64,000 bases of DNA from Bacteroidota bacterium (GTDB lineage Bacteria; Bacteroidota; Bacteroidia; NS11-12g; UBA9320): NCBI GenBank assembly GCA_016124755.1, contig WGNA01000007.1:1-64000 (forward strand), in the 5' to 3' direction. This document shows, piece after piece, positions 35,824-59,177 of this stretch. The number at the start of each line of letters is the position of its first letter. Within the stretch, counting starts at the first letter, position 1. The position numbers were made by a program, and so were the translations under genes. The notes under the pieces are model-generated. The model was not told where the DNA came from. It saw nothing but the letters and a program-made list of their open reading frames with translations, and searched no databases.

Positions 35824-36735
35824 TTAATTTCTGTCGTTCTTCGGCAGCAGGTGCACCGATGCTACCATATAATATTGTTCGGTGCTCACTTCGATTCTGA
35901 GCCCCGGATCTTTTTTATCTTTAGATTTATGAATCTTCACATTGAGATTTTTAAACGGATCAGTAAGCGTGGCTAAGCCTTCTCCCATAAAACCTACCAG
36001 ACCTTTTTCTTTAATGTTTACTGCATAAAACTCAAGGCTGTTCTTTTGAGTTCTGGGCACAAACTCTCCTAATTCATTATTCACAAGACCCAGCTCCATG
36101 CTGTTTTCTTTCGGAGTAAGCGGAATAAAAGAAGCGAATCCTCTTTCCGGCATATCAATTAAATCTTCTGCTGGTACCAAACGATTTACTGAATCTTTTG
36201 GGTTGGAATCGGGAATAACCGGAAGATTGAATCTGCCCTTTCCAGATTGTTTTTTAGCCAAGGTATGAACCGAATTCTGATCGGGTTGAATCCATTCCTT
36301 TTCGGTTGGATTTTGATTTTCCGGGGTTTTTAATTCTGATGCAGAATCGTTGACACCTCCGGGATTTGAATGTTCAACATTTGAAGTAATAGTTCCCGGG
36401 TTGTTGGTTTTAAACAAATTGTACAAGGGCACCGAGATCAACAGTGCAACCACAATAGCGGCGGCAACGGAAAGAGGTTTGCTAAACCACGAGAACAAAA
36501 TAATTCCGGCCTTTTCCTCCTTAATCAGACTCGATTTGTTGTGGTAAACAATGGCTTCGGGTTTGAGAACAGTATGTTGAAACTGCTCCCACTCACGCCC
36601 CAGTTCATCATCATCTTCTATTGCAGCAAGAAGTGCTTCCGCTTCCTTATCAGAAAGTTCTCCTTCCAAAAGGTTGAACAAATCCCACTCGGGACCCTGC
36701 GGATTTTGGTTCTTAAATCTTTCTTCTCCCGTCAT
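35824..36735 (-). CDS. anti-sigma factor-like membrane protein
   Basis: A 303-residue protein with an acidic cytoplasmic N terminus (WDLFNLLEGELSDKEAEALLAAIEDDDELGREWEQFQ), resembling the helical sigma-binding part of anti-sigma factors. One membrane helix (about 88-110) is followed by a Pro/Asn-rich periplasmic linker and a C-terminal domain without known motifs. It overlaps the sigma gene by ATGA, the usual sign of a sigma/anti-sigma pair. It probably holds the sigma factor at the membrane until an envelope signal arrives. Confidence 0.75.
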   Translation of the reverse strand: MTGEERFKNQNPQGPEWDLFNLLEGELSDKEAEALLAAIEDDDELGREWEQFQHTVLKPEAIVYHNKSSLIKEEKAGIILFSWFSKPLSVAAAIVVALLISVPLYNLFKTNNPGTITSNVEHSNPGGVNDSASELKTPENQNPTEKEWIQPDQNSVHTLAKKQSGKGRFNLPVIPDSNPKDSVNRLVPAEDLIDMPERGFASFIPLTPKENSMELGLVNNELGEFVPRTQKNSLEFYAVNIKEKGLVGFMGEGLATLTDPFKNLNVKIHKSKDKKDPGLRIEVSTEQYYMVASVHLLPKNDRN

Positions 36736-37217
36736 ATCACTGCGTATAAATCCTTTAAATATTTCTTGAGAAACTGACGTGCCCTGAAAATATTAATCTT
36801 CACCTGGGCTTCGGTTGTTCCTGTAATTTCCCCGATTGTGCGGTAATCGTACCCCTCGTAATCCCGAAGCATAACTGCGGTTTTCTGCGCTTCCGGTAAA
36901 TTATCGACGGCCTTTTTCACGATTTCCATCGCATCTGAGTATTGCCTTGAATGGCTGTAGTGAACCTCACTCACTTCTTCTAAAGAACCACTTCTGTTCG
37001 ACTTTCTCAGAATGTCGATACAGTTGTTGTAAGTGATCTTAAAAAGAAAAGCTTTTGCGGTGGCCATTTCAACATTTTCCTTTCTAACCCACAACTTCTC
37101 AAAGGTGTTCTGAACTACATTTTCAGCTTCGTATTCGTCTCGCAGGTGTTTTAGAGCAAACCGGAATATTCCGTCCGACAGATCAGCCACACATTGATTA
37201 TACTCTTTGGTTGTCAT
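36732..37217 (-). CDS. ECF-type RNA polymerase sigma factor
   Basis: A 161-residue sigma-70 family protein. Region 2 (FRFALKHLRDEYEAENVVQNTFEKLWVR, about 20-48) binds the core enzyme and the -10 region. Region 4 (LPEAQKTAVMLRDYEGYDYRTIGEITGTTEAQVKINIFRAR) forms the -35 helix-turn-helix. The ATG at 37217 was preferred to a TTG at 37244. Upstream on its strand, TTAATTTGC near 37246 resembles a -7 element. The gene is coupled to an anti-sigma gene and then to an outer-membrane protein gene, and its upstream region adjoins the repeat array. Confidence 0.92.
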   Translation of the reverse strand: MTTKEYNQCVADLSDGIFRFALKHLRDEYEAENVVQNTFEKLWVRKENVEMATAKAFLFKITYNNCIDILRKSNRSGSLEEVSEVHYSHSRQYSDAMEIVKKAVDNLPEAQKTAVMLRDYEGYDYRTIGEITGTTEAQVKINIFRARQFLKKYLKDLYAVI

Positions 37218-37330
37218 GAATCGCTTGTTGTACGACCTCTGCAAATTAAAGTTACAGTAAATCTAAAATTTTCTTTCACGAATATCCGAACTGTCTGTGA
37301 ATAAGACGGTTGAAAGGAGAATAAAGAACA

Positions 37331-37909
37331 GAGAACGCAAGAGCCAAGAGCGAAAGAGCGGGTTTGAAGAGTCTTATGAATGCCTCAGGAGTAACGGTAA
37401 CGGTAACAGTAACGGTAACGGTTAGTTAGTGGAGAGATGAAAGGTTCAACTGGCCAAAATTCCGATGTGTTCGGATGTGTTCAATTCTGGATTTCAAAGG
37501 CAGCTCCTCTCAAGAGCCAAGAGCGAGAGAGCGGGTTTTGATTTTAAGTGACGTGAAGAGTCTTATGAATGCCCAAGGGGTATCGGTAACTGTAACGTTA
37601 ACAGTTAGTTAGTGGAGAGATGAAAGGTTCAACTGGTCAAAATTCCGATGGGTTCGTATGGGTTCGGAGGCGTTCAATTCTGGATTTCAACTGCAGTTCC
37701 GCTCAAGAGCCAAGAGCGAGAGAGCGGGTTTTGATTTTAAGTGAAGTGCAGAGTCTCATGAATGCCCAAGGGGTATCGGTAACTGTAACGTTAACAGTTA
37801 GTTAGTGGAGAGATGAAAGGTTCAACTGGCTAAAATTCTGATGTGGATGTGTTCGTATGGGTTCAATTCTGGATTTCAACTGCAGCTCCGCTCTTTTGCT
37901 CTGCGTTCT
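37331..37909. repeat. three imperfect direct repeats of 173-193 bp, inverted ends
   Basis: The landmark GAGCCAAGAG occurs at 37341, 37514 and 37707. Each unit then contains GCGGGTTT, a TCATGAATGCC or TTATGAATGCC stretch, a short GTAAC-type array, GTTAGTTAGTGGAGAGATGA, AAAGGTTCAACTGG and GTTCAATTCTGGATTTCAA. Units 2 and 3 are the most alike. The left edge (37331-37362) reappears inverted at 37888-37909 (CCGCTCTTTTGCTCTGCGTT), so the block has imperfect inverted ends. Frames through it are interrupted or low in complexity, and it is not coding. Confidence 0.85.
37391..37420. repeat. five GTAACR hexamers in direct repeat unit 1
   Basis: Five consecutive hexamers GTAACG/GTAACA. This is the reverse complement of the large GTTACN tract at 37937-38074, so the two can pair. 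In units 2 and 3 the same place is shortened to GTAACTGTAACGTTAACAGTT, a near-palindrome. Confidence 0.85.
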
Positions 37910-37936
37910 TTCGCCCTTTCGCTCTTTACTTCTTCC

Positions 37937-38074
37937 GTTACTGCTACTGTTACCGTTACCGTTACCGTTACTGTTACCGTTACCGTTACTGTTACCGTTA
38001 CAGTTACAGTTACAGTTACAGTTACAGTTACAGTTACAGTTACAGTTACAGTTACAGTTACAGTTACAGTTACC
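37937..38074. repeat. hexanucleotide tract, 23 x GTTACN
   Basis: Twenty-three consecutive hexamers. The first ten are GTTACT, GCTACT or GTTACC, then come twelve exact GTTACA units (37997-38068) and a final GTTACC. Three degenerate units (GCTTCC, GCTTCC, GTTTCC) lead to 38092. The run of identical units suggests recent slippage. The tract ends 20 bases before the -7 element of the downstream methyltransferase gene. Confidence 0.95.
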
Positions 38075-38094
38075 GCTTCCGCTTCCGTTTCCCT

Positions 38095-38102
38095 TAATTT
38101 TG
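38095..38102 (+). promoter_or_regulatory. -7 promoter element TAATTTTG abutting a start codon
   Basis: A perfect TAnnTTTG match ending 4 bases before the ATG at 38107. Transcription would start at or next to the ATG, giving a nearly leaderless mRNA. The place for a -33 element (about 38069-38077) falls on the last hexamer and the first degenerate unit; no TTG is present there. Confidence 0.5.
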
Positions 38103-38106
38103 CATC

Positions 38107-38847
38107 ATGCAAAAGTCAGATGCCTGGTTTGAGGAGTGGTTCGACTCCCCGTTTTACCACATATTATATGGTCATCGCGACGATATGGAAGCCCGGAGAT
38201 TTATCGGCAATCTGATTGACAATCTTGCACCGGAAAAGCAAAGTCGTTTTCTCGATCTGGCTTGTGGAAAAGGAAGACATTCCCGGGTAATCCGCGATCT
38301 CGGTTTTGAAGTAGACGGAATAGATCTGAGCCAAAACAGTATTGAGGAGGCAAAAGTATATGAACACGAAGGGTTGCATTTTGCAGTTCACGACATGCGC
38401 GAAGTGTATCGTGAAAATCATTACCACTACGTTTTTAATCTCTTCACAAGCTTTGGGTACTTCTGTGAATTTTCGGATCACGAGAAAACACTCAACGCCA
38501 TCTATAAACAATTGGTCGACGGTGGTGTATTGGTGATCGACTATTTAAATTTTTCGTGGATCCAGAAAAAACTGGCGAATGGTTTTAATGATGTAATTCA
38601 TCGCCAGGGTATCGATTTTCACATTCAAAAAACACTTGATAAAGAATGTATCTCGAAATCCATCGACTTTAGAATTAACAATAAAAACTTCCATTTCGAA
38701 GAGCATGTATGGCGACTTCATCTGGCTGATTTTTATCAATTACTCACAGGATCCGGTTTTGAAATACAAACAATTTTTGGAGATTACGAGTTAAAGCCTT
38801 TCAAAGAAGACGAATCGGAGCGGTTAATCATTATCGCCACCAAATAA
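38107..38847 (+). CDS. class I SAM-dependent methyltransferase
   Basis: A 246-residue cytoplasmic methyltransferase. Motif I FLDLACGKGRHSRVI is followed by the acidic VDGIDLSQNSIEEA and the post-motif FAVHDMREVY. The N-terminal WFEEWFDSPFYHILYGHRD resembles small-molecule methyltransferases of this phylum, so DNA is an unlikely target. The substrate is not predictable. It is the first gene of a four-gene + strand run with a PAP2 phosphatase, a ZIP transporter and an M48 protease, and is preceded immediately by the hexamer tract. Confidence 0.85.
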   Translation: MQKSDAWFEEWFDSPFYHILYGHRDDMEARRFIGNLIDNLAPEKQSRFLDLACGKGRHSRVIRDLGFEVDGIDLSQNSIEEAKVYEHEGLHFAVHDMREVYRENHYHYVFNLFTSFGYFCEFSDHEKTLNAIYKQLVDGGVLVIDYLNFSWIQKKLANGFNDVIHRQGIDFHIQKTLDKECISKSIDFRINNKNFHFEEHVWRLHLADFYQLLTGSGFEIQTIFGDYELKPFKEDESERLIIIATK

Positions 38848-38859
38848 GCAATTCGAATT

Positions 38860-39444
38860 TTGATCGAAAGGATTCAATATATCGACCATCAGGTTTTTCA
38901 TCAGATTAACCATTGTATGAGCAATGGCGTTTTCGACTTTCTAATGCCGTTGTTCCGGGACAAATATTTTTGGATTCCCCTCTATATTTTGCTGTTGTTT
39001 TTAATCATCCGAAAACACAAGTGGCAGTCGGTGTACGTAATCGGTTTTGCTGTGCTTACCATTCTGCTCGCAGATCAGATTTCGGCACACATGATAAAAC
39101 CTGCGGTTCAGCGCCTTCGTCCGTGTAACGATCCGATGCTGAAAGATCTGGTTCATCTGCGGGCTGCATGCGGCAGCGGATATTCGTTTGTGAGCAGCCA
39201 CGCCGCGAATCATTTTGCGCTTGCCTTTTTCTTCATATCCGTTTTTGCGCGGCCGAGTAATCGTTTTTATGTGACATTACTTTTTATAATATGGGCCGGA
39301 CTGATTTCTTTTGCGCAGGTTTATGTAGGTGTACACTTTCCCATTGATGTGCTTTCCGGAGCCATGCTCGGGGCAGCGATCGGATATGGAATCGGCTGGT
39401 TAAATCTGATCACGTTGTGTCACCGGTGCGGCAAAGTAATCTGA
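38860..39444 (+). CDS. PAP2-family membrane phosphatase
   Basis: A 194-residue membrane protein with about five helices, probably a lipid or undecaprenyl phosphate phosphatase. Motif 1 KPAVQRLRP is intact, and motif 2 reads FVSSHAANH with the catalytic His. Motif 3 AQVYVGVHFPID keeps the His and Asp but has Gln where most members have Arg. Some Bacteroidota relatives appear to share this, so activity is not ruled out. The start codon is TTG, 12 bp after the methyltransferase gene. Confidence 0.85.
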   Translation: MIERIQYIDHQVFHQINHCMSNGVFDFLMPLFRDKYFWIPLYILLLFLIIRKHKWQSVYVIGFAVLTILLADQISAHMIKPAVQRLRPCNDPMLKDLVHLRAACGSGYSFVSSHAANHFALAFFFISVFARPSNRFYVTLLFIIWAGLISFAQVYVGVHFPIDVLSGAMLGAAIGYGIGWLNLITLCHRCGKVI

Positions 39445-39455
39445 GTAAGCATTAA

Positions 39456-40178
39456 GTGAATTTCTGGTTTTATTTCATCCTGTTCTTTTTTCCGCTAACT
39501 GGCGGAACACTTGGTCTCATCATCAGAACCGAGAAAACGCAATACCTGAAACTCTTTCTGGCTTTCAGCGGTGCCTTCCTTTTTTCAATCACGGCAGTTT
39601 CCATTATTCCGGAAGTATATTCGGCAAATACCGCATGGCCGGTTGGCTATTTTATACTCGCCGGTTTTTTCCTTCAGATCATTATAGACCAGTTTTCTAA
39701 AGGAGTTGAACACGGTCATCTTCATCATCATCAGCACGATAAATCGCCGTACGGAATTTTTATAGCGCTAAGTCTTCATGCTTTTCTTGAAGGGATGGCT
39801 GCAGGTGGAGAAACTTTTTCGGAGAGTGTACAATCCAGTTTTGTTTTTGGAATTGCCCTTCATGAAATCCCTGCGGCATTTGCACTTATAACCATTTTAA
39901 GAGCATCCGGAGTTCGCAAACAATTTCTCTATACCTGGCTTGTGGTTTATTCATTAATGACCATCGCCGGCTCATTACTCAGCCAACTGGCCATCACAAT
40001 TTCGGCTGATGTGTCGAATTATATGGTGTACATGGTTGCCGTTGTAATTGGTGTTTTCCTGCATATTTCCACTACCATACTTTTCGAAAACACCGACAAC
40101 CATCGCTTTAGCCGGCTTAAACTTGTGGCGGTAATCATTGGTGTGTTGATCGCATTGCTCAGCACGTGGGTGCATTGA
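39456..40178 (+). CDS. ZIP-family divalent metal transporter
   Basis: A 240-residue membrane protein with about eight helices that imports zinc or another divalent metal. Helix IV has SLHAFLEGMA and helix V ALHEIPAAFAL, the His/Glu metal site of ZIP proteins. A His-rich cytoplasmic loop (EHGHLHHHQHDK) precedes them and may sense metal. Translation starts at GTG. It is a single-gene transporter in an operon-like run; no metal regulator lies adjacent. Confidence 0.9.
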   Translation: MNFWFYFILFFFPLTGGTLGLIIRTEKTQYLKLFLAFSGAFLFSITAVSIIPEVYSANTAWPVGYFILAGFFLQIIIDQFSKGVEHGHLHHHQHDKSPYGIFIALSLHAFLEGMAAGGETFSESVQSSFVFGIALHEIPAAFALITILRASGVRKQFLYTWLVVYSLMTIAGSLLSQLAITISADVSNYMVYMVAVVIGVFLHISTTILFENTDNHRFSRLKLVAVIIGVLIALLSTWVH

Positions 40179-40251
40179 GCATTAAATTTTGTTTTGGCGT
40201 TCTGAACCAACTTATTAACTTGCCAAAGTGCAGATAAGGCGGCAGTTAACC

Positions 40252-42558
40252 ATGATTTCAAAATCCTTAGCCAACGGGCATTTACAGAGATTTTTATTCT
40301 GTATTATTCTAATTATTCCCTTTATAACCAAAGCGCAGGAATTAACTTTTAAACCACTTAAAAGCGAAGGAAAACTTCCCCGGGAATTTCACTACTACGT
40401 TCAACAGACGCTTCACAATATTAAATCTGACAGCCAGACAGATAAAAAATTTGAGACAGAAGCCTGGTTGGGAATACACGGATTGATCACCAGCGGATCG
40501 ATACTTTTTGGCGATACCGTGAGCCGTTATATAAATGAACTGGCGCATGAAATTACAACCGCAAACAACATCACCGACGATCTGAAATTTTACGTATTGC
40601 GGTCAACCGAAACCAACGCTTTTGCAACCGATCAGGGATATATTTTCGTTACGGTCGGCGCACTGGCAGATTCCAGAAACAGGGAAGAACTCGCCTTTAT
40701 TCTTTGCCACGAAATTTCTCATTATTTATTAAAACACAACTATCAGAAATACAAGAGAAGTGAAACGCTTAATGAGTCTTCCGGTAAATCAAAACTCTCA
40801 ACCGAAGAAAGAGTAAAGGAATTTTTCGCATACAGCCGGCACGACGAACTGGAAGCAGACAGTATGGGCTCCCAGCTTTATCTGAAATGCGGATTTACCC
40901 CCGAATCCATTTTACAGTCGCTTAATAATCTGGATGAAATTAATTCTTCATTCATCCGCTACAACTGGAATTTCCACTATTTGGAAGATCCTGCCTTTAA
41001 ATTTCCAACGCCGTATTATCAGTTGGATTCGATGGACGATCCCCGGTATTACGGATTCTTTAATTCAATCATCTGGCAGGAAGACCGCACCAAAAAGAAA
41101 TCGAAAGACGATGATGACGATGCCTACAGCACCCACCCCGACATAAGTGTGCGTATTTCTACCATGCGCGACATTCTTAAGAAAAGCGCCGGGCTCGACA
41201 GTTTTGAAATTACAACCGACATACCGATTGAAGCGTCGTTTCAGTTTGTTCACCGGCTCAGTCAGGTCGACAATCTTCTCAGCCATTTTTCATCCACCAA
41301 TTATGTGATGGCGCATTATTACACAATGATTTTACAGCAGGAATGGGGAGCTTCACAGGAACTTGAATTTTTTAAAACCCTTTCGCTCAACAACATTTAT
41401 TACAAATTATTTCATCGCGCCGGTCGCATGATTACCCTTACTCCGCTGCTCACACTCGACAATTCAGACAACTGGAATGTTACACACATGTCTCGTTTTT
41501 TTCATTTGCTGAGCAACGAAGAATGGCTAATGATTCTCTGTCGCGAAAACATGAAATGGAAGGAAATTTATCCAGAGAATAAAGTGACCGACCGCTACTT
41601 AAAACAATCCACCTACTTCGCTCACGAGTTTGTGAGTTTTAGTTTTAAAAGATACGCGGAAGATACGGTTAAGAATTCGGCATTAACACACGGTAAGGTA
41701 TGGCTTCAGAAAAATACCGCCGACGCCGCATTCGATCCTTACGAAGTCTGGAACATACGAACCGAATATTTAAAACACTCCTTCACCATGGTAAAATATG
41801 AAGGTGGTGAACGCTACGAGCGATGGCAGGAATGGTATGCAGATCACGACACTTTTTTCCCGCCGAATGTTGATCGCTACTCAAAAACACTGCGTTATTT
41901 CCCGAGTCACAAACCCAAACTCTCTTATAAAGAATCACGGGAACATCGCGATTCGGTTTTATTTCTGAGTCCGCGAATCAGAACGTATCGGTACAAAGAC
42001 GATCAATACGAAAACGATGTTGAGCAGAACGAACAAAATCTCGCTGATCTAACGAATCAGATCAGAAGTTTCGGCAGCGATCTCAATATCGGGTTTGCCG
42101 AAGTAGATTTAACCAACCGCGATTCGCTTAATACCGAAGTGTACAACGAACATTATTTTCTGGAAGCCTGGGTTATGGAAAAAATCAGGGCTGCCTCGAA
42201 TCTCATTGTACCGGTAACTTCCTTTTATGAAGAATCTCCCAGAAATACCTACGGGCAAAATGTTGTATTCTTTACCTATGTTTCGGTTTTAGATAATGGA
42301 CTAAAAGATCGTCCATTGCTGGAATGGCTCACTCCGGTTACCTTCCCGGTTAAGTGGATTCGGGCCTTTAAAAAACCGCGTTCCCGTGTTGAATACATGT
42401 CGGCATTGATTGATCTCGATCAGGATGCCATGCTCTTTTTTGAATATGAAATTTTAAGAAAATCATTGACCACCGATATGTTAAGGGCCCATGTTTATGA
42501 CTTGATGTACGAAAGCAAAAGAGTGCTGAACGAAAGCCGGGAAGAAAACGAGGATTGA
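40252..42558 (+). CDS. M48-family metallopeptidase, secreted
   Basis: A 768-residue exported protease. A signal peptide (ending FITKAQE) is followed by the M48 catalytic domain with the zinc site HEISHYLLKH and the third ligand Glu in HDELEADSMG (about residues 155-215). The remaining 550 residues form a large C-terminal part rich in aromatic and charged residues that I do not recognise. It resembles BepA/LoiP-like envelope proteases in its first third only. The ATG at 40252 was preferred to a GTG at 40228 because it leads directly into the signal peptide. Confidence 0.85.
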   Translation: MISKSLANGHLQRFLFCIILIIPFITKAQELTFKPLKSEGKLPREFHYYVQQTLHNIKSDSQTDKKFETEAWLGIHGLITSGSILFGDTVSRYINELAHEITTANNITDDLKFYVLRSTETNAFATDQGYIFVTVGALADSRNREELAFILCHEISHYLLKHNYQKYKRSETLNESSGKSKLSTEERVKEFFAYSRHDELEADSMGSQLYLKCGFTPESILQSLNNLDEINSSFIRYNWNFHYLEDPAFKFPTPYYQLDSMDDPRYYGFFNSIIWQEDRTKKKSKDDDDDAYSTHPDISVRISTMRDILKKSAGLDSFEITTDIPIEASFQFVHRLSQVDNLLSHFSSTNYVMAHYYTMILQQEWGASQELEFFKTLSLNNIYYKLFHRAGRMITLTPLLTLDNSDNWNVTHMSRFFHLLSNEEWLMILCRENMKWKEIYPENKVTDRYLKQSTYFAHEFVSFSFKRYAEDTVKNSALTHGKVWLQKNTADAAFDPYEVWNIRTEYLKHSFTMVKYEGGERYERWQEWYADHDTFFPPNVDRYSKTLRYFPSHKPKLSYKESREHRDSVLFLSPRIRTYRYKDDQYENDVEQNEQNLADLTNQIRSFGSDLNIGFAEVDLTNRDSLNTEVYNEHYFLEAWVMEKIRAASNLIVPVTSFYEESPRNTYGQNVVFFTYVSVLDNGLKDRPLLEWLTPVTFPVKWIRAFKKPRSRVEYMSALIDLDQDAMLFFEYEILRKSLTTDMLRAHVYDLMYESKRVLNESREENED

Positions 42559-42600
42559 TTGATGAAAAAAATTAAACGAATTAAGAATTAATAAATGGAG

Positions 42601-42628
42601 AATTGGGGAATTGGGGAATTGGGGAATT
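42601..42628. repeat. octamer tract, AATTGGGG x 3.5
   Basis: Three exact AATTGGGG units and a final AATT. A lone AATTGGGG recurs at 42691-42698 between the two hairpins. Confidence 0.9.
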
Positions 42629-56845: not shown

Positions 56846-57734
56846 AAAAAGAAGGAAAGAAAAGCTCATTGAGTTTTCCATTCCTGCCGATAAAAACAAA
56901 TGGCTCATTGTTTTAAAAATTGTCCTGAGTGCGATTGCACTGTTCTTTGCTATAAAGCTGGTTGGTAAATTCAGCATTCTCAATGTTCTGAAAGAAACCG
57001 ACATCGTGTTGCTGCTACTTTCTGTGGTGCTGTATATGTTGTCGCAGTTTCTTTCTTCCGAACGACTCCGGCTTTTTATGCGACGCTTCCGGGCAGGTCA
57101 TCATGTTACAAGCTTGTGGAATTTTAAGCTCTATGTGATCGGCATGTCGTACAATCTTTTTATACCAGGAGGTATTGGCGGCGATGCTTATAAAGTGGTT
57201 TTGTACGATTCAAAATTAAAAACCGGTAAACGAAAAATTATTGCCGGACTCATTTTAGACCGGGTGGTTGGATTAATCGGAATTCTGATCGGAATTGCGG
57301 CACTCGGGTTTTTCGCACCGGAATTTCATCGATATGGCGGAACCTTTTGGTTTCTCCCGGTTTTGCTCATAATCTTTCTCGCAAACCGATTAATCAGACG
57401 GGAATATCCGCGCTTTGCACCCGTATTTTTTTCTGCTCTAATGATGTCGCTGCTGGTTCAGCTTCTTCAGGTGCTGGCCTTTCTTGCCTTATTGTGGACG
57501 ACCGGACTCACCGATCACAACATGATGATGTCTGCCGTATTTCTGGTTTCTTCTGTTGCGATTATTGTCCCGGTTTTTCTGGGTGGAGTCGGTGCACGAG
57601 AAGTTCTGTTCGCCGGCCTAGCACCGCTGTTGCATTACGAAGGGCCGGATGCCGTTACCGCAGCGATTCTGTTCAGCGTAGTCGTAGTGCTCACATCACT
57701 CCCCGGATTGGTTGTTCAATGGATCGAAAAATAA
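56832..57734 (+). CDS. LPG-synthase-type (UPF0104) flippase-like membrane protein
   Basis: A 300-residue protein with about eight helices of the lysylphosphatidylglycerol synthase transmembrane family. Signatures are NLFIPGGIGGDAYKVVLY near residue 105 and VFLGGVGAREVLFAG near 255. Members are thought to act as lipid or polyprenol-phosphate transporters. The aminoacyl-transferase domain of MprF is absent. Translation starts at TTG within the end of the GT2 gene. The last 112 bases are duplicated downstream (copy 2 ends at 57896). Confidence 0.85.
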   Translation: MKRSRKRRKEKLIEFSIPADKNKWLIVLKIVLSAIALFFAIKLVGKFSILNVLKETDIVLLLLSVVLYMLSQFLSSERLRLFMRRFRAGHHVTSLWNFKLYVIGMSYNLFIPGGIGGDAYKVVLYDSKLKTGKRKIIAGLILDRVVGLIGILIGIAALGFFAPEFHRYGGTFWFLPVLLIIFLANRLIRREYPRFAPVFFSALMMSLLVQLLQVLAFLALLWTTGLTDHNMMMSAVFLVSSVAIIVPVFLGGVGAREVLFAGLAPLLHYEGPDAVTAAILFSVVVVLTSLPGLVVQWIEK

Positions 57735-57944
57735 TTATCTGAGAATTGTCTGAACCCGATCGGGTCCCTCAAAGATTACTTTGCACCGCTGTTGCAGTAC
57801 GAAGGGCCGGATGCCGTTACCGCGGCGATTCTGTTCAGCGCTGTTGTTGTGCTGACATCACTCCCCGGACTGATAGTTCAGTGGATCGAAAAATAATTAT
57901 CTGAGAATTGTCTGAACCCGATCGGGTCCTACGGAGATTACTTT
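57621..57944. repeat. 162-bp tandem duplication across a convergent gene junction
   Basis: Copy 1 (57621-57782) and copy 2 (57783-57944) are 162 bp each with about 15 differences. Each holds the 3' end of the LPG-synthase-like gene with its stop, then the 3' end of purA with its stop. Copy 1 belongs to the intact membrane-protein gene and copy 2 to the intact purA. The extra ends are remnants. Most differences in the membrane-protein part are silent or conservative (V/A, V/I). Confidence 0.92.
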
Positions 57945-59177
57945 GATCGGTGTTTTGAGTTGGTCTTCCAGCCAAAGAATATAATTCGTAAAATTCTCCG
58001 GAAGTAGATCTGCCTCCCGCACCGGACACAAATCTTCAGACCATCCTGCGCGATCTTCGTAAATAGGATCGAGATCAGTTCCCACGTAATTATATGGTAC
58101 CTGATCCGAAATTTTTCCATCGATTTTATAGGCAGTGGCTACGCGGACTTTATCGATTCCACTGAGTACATCAGACTTCATCATAATTAATTCATCCACG
58201 CCACTGAGCATCACAGCGTATTTGAGTGCAACGAGATCGAGCCAGCCACATCTGCGTGGTCGCCCGGTAGTTGCACCGAATTCGTGACCGGTAATACGTA
58301 ACTTCTCTCCCATTTCGTCGTGCAGTTCGGTTGGAAACGGTCCACCGCCAACACGTGTGCAATACGCTTTAAAAATCCCCATCACTTTGCGGATGTGTTT
58401 GGGTGCGAGTCCAAGTCCTACCGTAACACCACCGCTGATAGTATTAGAAGATGTAACATAAGGATACGATCCGAAATCAACATCGAGCATAGATCCCTGT
58501 GCTCCTTCTGCTAATATTTTTTTACCGGAATCAAGAAGTTCATGTATGAAATATTCGCTCTCTACGAACCGATACGTTTTTAGTCTTTCCACCGCTTCAT
58601 AAAATTCCTGTTCCAATGCGGCAAGACTGCTGAAATCAAAACCAAACTGGTTGAGTTGTTCGCAGTGGCGTTCGGTTACCGCGGCAACCATTTCTTTAAA
58701 ATCTGCCCGAAACATATCACCCGTTCTTATTCCCGATCTGCCGTATTTATCGCGATAAGTCGGACCAATACCGCGAAGAGTTGAGCCAATTTTTTCATCG
58801 CCCTTCATTTGTTCGGAAGCAGCGTCGAGGAGCTTATGAGTTGGCAGTATAAGATTCGCTTTTCGGGAAATATAAAGTGCGCCTTTCACATCTGCACCTG
58901 CAGCGGCGGTGCGGTCGATTTCCTCCATCAAACGAACGGGATCGATCACCACTCCGTTTCCGATCAGATTAATGCAGTCTTTGTGAAAGATGCCGCTCGG
59001 TATAGTATTGAGAACGTGTTTTACTCCGTTCATTTCTAAGCTGTGTCCGGCGTTCGGTCCGCCTTGAAACCGCGCAACAACATCGTAAGATGGCGTAAGA
59101 AAATCGGCAATTTTACCTTTCCCTTCATCGCCCCATTGCAATCCCAGGACAACATCAACATATCCTCTTTCTGACAT
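57897..59177 (-). CDS. purA: adenylosuccinate synthetase
   Basis: Makes adenylosuccinate from IMP, aspartate and GTP on the way to AMP. A 426-residue protein: VVLGLQWGDEGKGKIADFL at the N terminus with the catalytic Asp and P-loop-like GDEGKGK, GGPNAGHSL with the catalytic His, GTPTRK-like segment STLRGIGPTYRDK and the C-terminal VISVGPDRVQTILR. Length and motifs are standard. A degenerate copy of its 3' end lies just beyond its stop codon, in the tandem duplication. Confidence 0.97.
   Translation of the reverse strand: MSERGYVDVVLGLQWGDEGKGKIADFLTPSYDVVARFQGGPNAGHSLEMNGVKHVLNTIPSGIFHKDCINLIGNGVVIDPVRLMEEIDRTAAAGADVKGALYISRKANLILPTHKLLDAASEQMKGDEKIGSTLRGIGPTYRDKYGRSGIRTGDMFRADFKEMVAAVTERHCEQLNQFGFDFSSLAALEQEFYEAVERLKTYRFVESEYFIHELLDSGKKILAEGAQGSMLDVDFGSYPYVTSSNTISGGVTVGLGLAPKHIRKVMGIFKAYCTRVGGGPFPTELHDEMGEKLRITGHEFGATTGRPRRCGWLDLVALKYAVMLSGVDELIMMKSDVLSGIDKVRVATAYKIDGKISDQVPYNYVGTDLDPIYEDRAGWSEDLCPVREADLLPENFTNYILWLEDQLKTPIKVISVGPDRVQTILR

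Follow-up and report, generated by a model that had tools for sequence, protein, structure and literature searches.

A hexamer tract upstream of a methyltransferase gene and the genome-wide family of degenerate spacer arrays to which it is related in a Bacteroidota genome

Introduction

Is a long hexamer tract that ends just short of a promoter a dedicated switch for the genes behind it, or one local instance of something that occurs throughout the genome? This question is raised by the spacer between a class I SAM methyltransferase gene and a divergent ECF sigma factor gene in a 64,000-nt stretch of DNA from a Bacteroidota bacterium (hereafter the window). A first-pass annotation of this DNA proposed a length-variable promoter switch, in which tract length would alter expression of the run of methyltransferase, PAP2, ZIP and M48 genes and possibly that of the ECF sigma operon. 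Here we examine the spacer in the light of its own genome (4.05 Mb in 39 contigs), of related genomes and of known repeat systems; outside the window, gene positions are codon-based calls made in this analysis.

Architecture of the spacer

The spacer separates the ECF sigma gene (36732-37217, minus strand, start at 37217) from the methyltransferase gene (38107-38847, plus strand), behind which the PAP2, ZIP and M48 genes follow on the same strand (38860-42558). All of these gene labels had been assigned correctly from the sequence. The methyltransferase gene is conserved in the family, with matches in 35 of 38 relatives, where PAP2 is usually the next gene and ZIP often follows too, and the divergent ECF sigma neighbour is likewise found in the relatives L206, L207, L210 and L215.

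Within the spacer, three direct repeats form a minisatellite (37338-37893) with units starting at 37338, 37511 and 37704, a spacing of 173 and 193 bp; TRF, run on the window, describes it as 2.8 copies of a 193-bp unit at 37365-37893 (score 771). It is bounded on the plus strand by AGAGCG-type purine-rich text (37336-37361) and CGCTCT-type pyrimidine-rich text (37888-37913), imperfect inverted ends that are 81% complementary. Unit 1 carries a GTAACR array (37390-37422), the minus strand of which reads GTTHCH towards the ECF sigma gene, while past the repeats a plus-strand GTTACN tract of 23 hexamers (37937-38074) reads towards the methyltransferase gene. Twelve of these hexamers are identical (GTTACA, 37997-38068), giving the tract a slippage-prone core, and one of the 23 is GCTACT. 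This description agrees with the first-pass annotation, including its view that the tract is prone to slippage. The long hairpin that it envisaged between the two opposed arrays is also borne out as a property of the sequence: the 33 nt at 37390-37422 are 100% complementary to those at 37958-37990, 535 nt apart, and the region folded as single-stranded DNA is more stable than all 20 shuffles (z = -3.7).

Between the tract and the promoter lie the degenerate plus-strand words GCTTCC GCTTCC GTTTCC CT (38075-38094), followed by the -7 box TAATTTTG (38095-38102, plus strand), the leader CATC and the ATG at 38107. The box is thus 20 bp past the tract and 26 bp past the end of the GTTACA run, and the region expected to hold the -33 element is indeed the tract end. 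That the -7 element is genuine is supported by the relatives, 16 of 19 of which have a -7-like box 3-8 nt from the methyltransferase start, at exactly 4 nt in 10. The -7 box is placed at -12 to -5 relative to the start site in PMC9723704. With the box so placed, the predicted transcription start of the methyltransferase gene coincides with the A of the ATG or adjoins it, and the tract would therefore lie outside the transcript from the predicted promoter. The tract is crossed by three overlapping open reading frames, which arise since none of the forward frames of GTTHCH contains a stop; a coding origin of the hexamer was rejected, as word position 3 is constant and positions 4 and 6 are variable, unlike a codon pattern.

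The spacer has grown between two retained edges

The spacer between the ECF sigma and methyltransferase genes measures 118-132 bp in L206, L207, L210 and L215, versus 889 bp here. When the flanks were aligned with those of five relatives, the ECF side and the -7 side were both found to be kept. Together, the short spacers of the relatives and the retained flanks show that about 757 bp were gained here, with the ECF side and the -7 box left intact on either side. The evidence for an empty site comes from this one locus: the protein from L077, used as a second probe, had no matches in the relatives, and the matches of the protein from L058 were paralogue families.

The ancestral sequence retained on the ECF side (37218-37330, seen in alignment with L206-L210) includes AAAGTTACAGTAAA at 37248-37261, which is also kept in relatives and probably belongs to the ECF promoter. 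The word GTTACA occurs within it and might have been the seed of the array. As about 113 bp of ancestral sequence remain next to the ECF sigma gene, the additional effect once suggested for that operon is unlikely.

Hexamer arrays are dispersed through the genome

The pattern (GTTACN)4 with at most 2 mismatches has 578 matches in the genome and its reversed-pattern control has 0; array abundance is therefore far beyond chance. Exact (GTTACN)5 occurs 79 times in this genome and 0 times in 57 relatives drawn from its family and order, none of them of the same genus, with 1 match in 394 other genomes of the phylum. The family is thus dispersed in its own genome and absent from the 57 relatives searched. 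A seven-unit pattern matched 66 scattered stretches in a collection of 84,980 species; almost all of these GTTACN tracts repeat a single free base, the outcome expected of plain slippage, whereas the arrays of this genome are mixed. A literature search for the GTTACN hexamer returned nothing relevant.

To describe the family, we sampled stretches around arrays and a small random set. The 844 hexamers of 133 arrays give the consensus GTTHCH (DGDAAC on the other strand), in which positions 4 and 6 are variable and the others nearly fixed. G stands at position 1 in 835 hexamers, T at position 3 in 834 and C at position 5 in 839, whereas position 4 may be A, T or C, and position 6 may be C, A or T and is rarely G. 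The window tract is the longest of the 133. Only 13 of 154 arrays lie inside called genes, the rest being in spacers. Array numbers vary widely, and ten random 20-kb stretches contained no array of at least three units. Since several contigs end in or near arrays, the assembly may show fewer copies than the genome contains.

In many of the 38 fetched places, the arrays lie inside local tandem units of about 130-195 bp, which also hold CGCTCT-type text and the motif TTCGCTTCGCTCANNATGAC (53 copies in this genome, for example at L079:2800-4178, and 0 in the 57 relatives). The 193-bp unit body of the window is unique in the genome, nearly all of its other matches being the hexamer array and two being the inverted ends. 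Since the window unit is private and the hexamer word widespread, the words are common to many sites and the units are made locally. On recurrence of the array the answer is accordingly divided: the hexamer word recurs across the genome, but the 193-bp unit body does not, nor does exact (GTTACN)5 in the 57 relatives.

Several other repeats were encountered. Palindromes of the GGTAGCGGGGACGCTACC type occur within array units at L054, L063 and L073, and a GTAAC array inside a called gene (L060:2466-2495) would read as Gly/Ser-Asn repeats. Degenerate arrays with units of about 7 bp lie in spacers at L191:6851-6963, L191:19139-19228 and L193:560-703 (GCGAARA, GCTTTTC and NTTCGNT types). In the window itself, a fourfold TGGGGAAT array (42596-42628) stands within purine-rich text shortly past the M48 stop codon (42558), its purine-rich strand reading away from the M48 gene as DGDAAC does, and a 162-bp sequence is present in two copies with 90% matches at 57621-57945.

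Arrays keep a fixed polarity at gene edges

All 25 arrays of at least three units that lie within 25 bp of a called gene have GTTHCH reading towards that gene (25/25, p = 6e-8), 20 of them at its 3' end and five at its 5' end. Where a spacer holds both orientations, GTAAC is on the left and GTTAC on the right (10/10), and L049, L054 and L070 are arranged likewise. Arrays at stop codons begin within a few bases of the stop, and some supply the TAA themselves; long pure runs also occur directly after stop codons (L057, L075). Arrays on the promoter side stop short and spare the -7 box, both in the window and at L056, L066, L069, L070 and L073. Among 31 TAnnTTTG promoters drawn from array-rich loci, six stand directly behind hexamer text. 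Most genes that follow a promoter-side array have housekeeping roles, examples being those for proline dehydrogenase, a class-III aminotransferase, aldehyde dehydrogenase and response regulators, and no association of these arrays with surface or contingency genes was seen. General purine loading after stop codons was considered as well, and is absent from random spacers (purine 0.50).

Comparison with known repeat systems

The STRR sequences of heterocystous cyanobacteria are short tandem heptamer arrays across spacers. The GTTHCH family is like them in its spacer-wide short tandem arrays, and unlike them in unit length and phylum.

The closest known kind comprises the intergenic heptamers of Xanthomonas (GGGANTN) and Nostoc (GGGGA(C/T)T), which are degenerate, are found genome-wide with a bias to spacers, have some positions fixed and others free, are associated mostly with non-contingency genes and have no known function (PMC4692102). 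The authors of that work discussed quadruplexes, saw no regulatory role for the repeats in gene expression and regarded phase variation as improbable (PMC4692102). The hexamer family is a variant of this kind. It shares with the heptamers a large number of arrays located mostly in spacers, a unit that mixes conserved with free positions, and a strand that is constant with respect to the neighbouring ORF edge. It differs in that its unit is a hexamer whose DGDAAC strand has no regular G-tracts, and so forms no quadruplex; in that its arrays frequently lie inside local minisatellites of 130-195 bp and, in some spacers, form a cap at either end; and in its host, a member of the Bacteroidota. Unlike the heptamers, GTTHCH arrays are not clearly under-represented between divergent genes, although the sample is small (5/29 spacers with arrays, 11/50 without). 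Because GTTHCH lacks G-tracts, the polarity shared with Xanthomonas and Nostoc needs a non-quadruplex explanation, at least here.

TAACTGA heptamers are known from Beggiatoaceae, Cyanobacteria and a few Bacteroidetes, and in the best-studied genome they are mostly at start codons (PMC4679880). In both cases short direct repeats stand beside genes across the genome and favour one orientation, their occurrence is patchy, relatives have shorter spacers free of them, and contigs end in them (PMC4679880), whereas the word and its length differ, two positions of GTTHCH are degenerate and the arrays here are mostly at stop codons. REP palindromes with their RAYT transposases are also spacer repeats, often 3' of genes and in inverted pairs, but the 20-40-bp tagged palindrome and the repeat-flanked transposase of that system (PMC3733652) are both lacking here. 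Finally, the window tract is similar to phase-variable promoter tracts, such as that of uspA1 of Moraxella as described in PMC4679880, in being a simple tract near a promoter, with a -7 box 20 bp downstream that is kept in relatives; unlike them, it belongs to a genome-wide family that occurs beside mostly housekeeping genes and stop codons.

Interpretation of the locus

Taking these observations together, we favour, with a probability of about 0.72, the reading that this spacer is one member site of a lineage-specific family of degenerate hexamer arrays, spread over the whole genome, that has grown in spacers by slippage and local tandem duplication and has been stopped by selection at the edges, with no dedicated switch. 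GTTHCH arrays would extend within spacers through these two processes, and their growth would be tolerated as far as a functional edge, either a stop codon or a -7 box, where purifying selection would halt it. We infer that the twelve GTTACA copies are a recent slippage expansion. If the methyltransferase operon is affected at all, this would probably be a by-product of hexamer text occupying the -33 region and the upstream contacts. Such passive growth is favoured because the genes behind promoter-side arrays are mostly ordinary and because, among the arrays in contact with genes, those at stop codons are the most numerous.

Two properties of the family sit less easily with growth alone. Slippage by itself would make all six positions variable, but positions 1, 3 and 5 are about 99% fixed, a hint of selection or of some unusual mode of copying. 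In addition, the strict polarity is left unexplained by selection at gene edges. A more speculative reading, which we consider less likely than not, is that array polarity is fixed at gene edges in general, across unrelated words in unrelated phyla, non-quadruplex words included, and that the arrays are built or kept by some process such as directional slippage at gene edges, a strand-reading protein or an effect of transcription.

The same properties, namely near-absolute conservation of G1, T3 and C5 beside free positions 4 and 6, strict polarity and the presence of arrays at both gene ends, are what would be expected of a selected regulatory or insulating element, in which GTTHCH serves as a protein-binding word, or terminates transcripts that run from spacers into genes, and is held in one orientation at gene edges for that reason. 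We regard this as unlikely, since the search for a binding protein or terminator signature found none (0 intrinsic-terminator-like sites around the locus), array numbers vary widely, and the ten random 20-kb stretches contained no array of at least three units.

The proposed switch, in which slippage in the GTTACA run would change tract length and with it expression of the methyltransferase operon, is likewise improbable. In its favour, the 12 identical hexamers should slip; they end 26 bp before the conserved -7 box and belong to the longest tract sampled, and the tract end falls in the -33 region. However, slippage upstream of the promoter would leave the 20-bp gap between tract and -7 box constant, the same arrays occur at stop codons, where they are in fact commoner, pure runs occur after stop codons too, and promoter-side arrays precede mostly housekeeping genes. 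These points speak against the claim of a switch dedicated to the methyltransferase run.

An inserted mobile miniature element of MITE or REP type is very improbable, for although the feature has imperfect inverted ends and the gain of about 757 bp is clean, and the genome has three Y1 transposase-type genes, the unit body is absent elsewhere in the genome, there are no GTTAC arrays at the transposase loci, and array lengths are ragged with no shared full-length element seen. A MITE or insertion sequence is disfavoured by the single occurrence of the unit body in the genome, multiple homologous full-length copies not being found, and a REP/RAYT origin was rejected because the DNA fetched around each of the three Y1_Tnp genes holds no arrays. 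One of the Y1 transposase-type proteins (L152) ends in GFEPPAEAGGN, a RAYT-like tail, with no GTTAC arrays nearby. Spread by phages or mobile DNA was also rejected: matches on viral contigs are mostly uniform tracts or repeats of other words, and the companion motif TTCGCTTCGCTCA is absent from them.

Under the favoured reading of passive growth in spacers, a supposed single switch becomes a genome-wide natural experiment. In one lineage, the same hexamer text has taken the place of the sequence that preceded several -7 boxes, the expected -33 region included, and the genes and their -7 boxes persist. This makes it testable whether Bacteroidota promoters need anything upstream of the -7 box, and what that would be, and why arrays of short words hold one strand orientation at gene edges without G-tracts.
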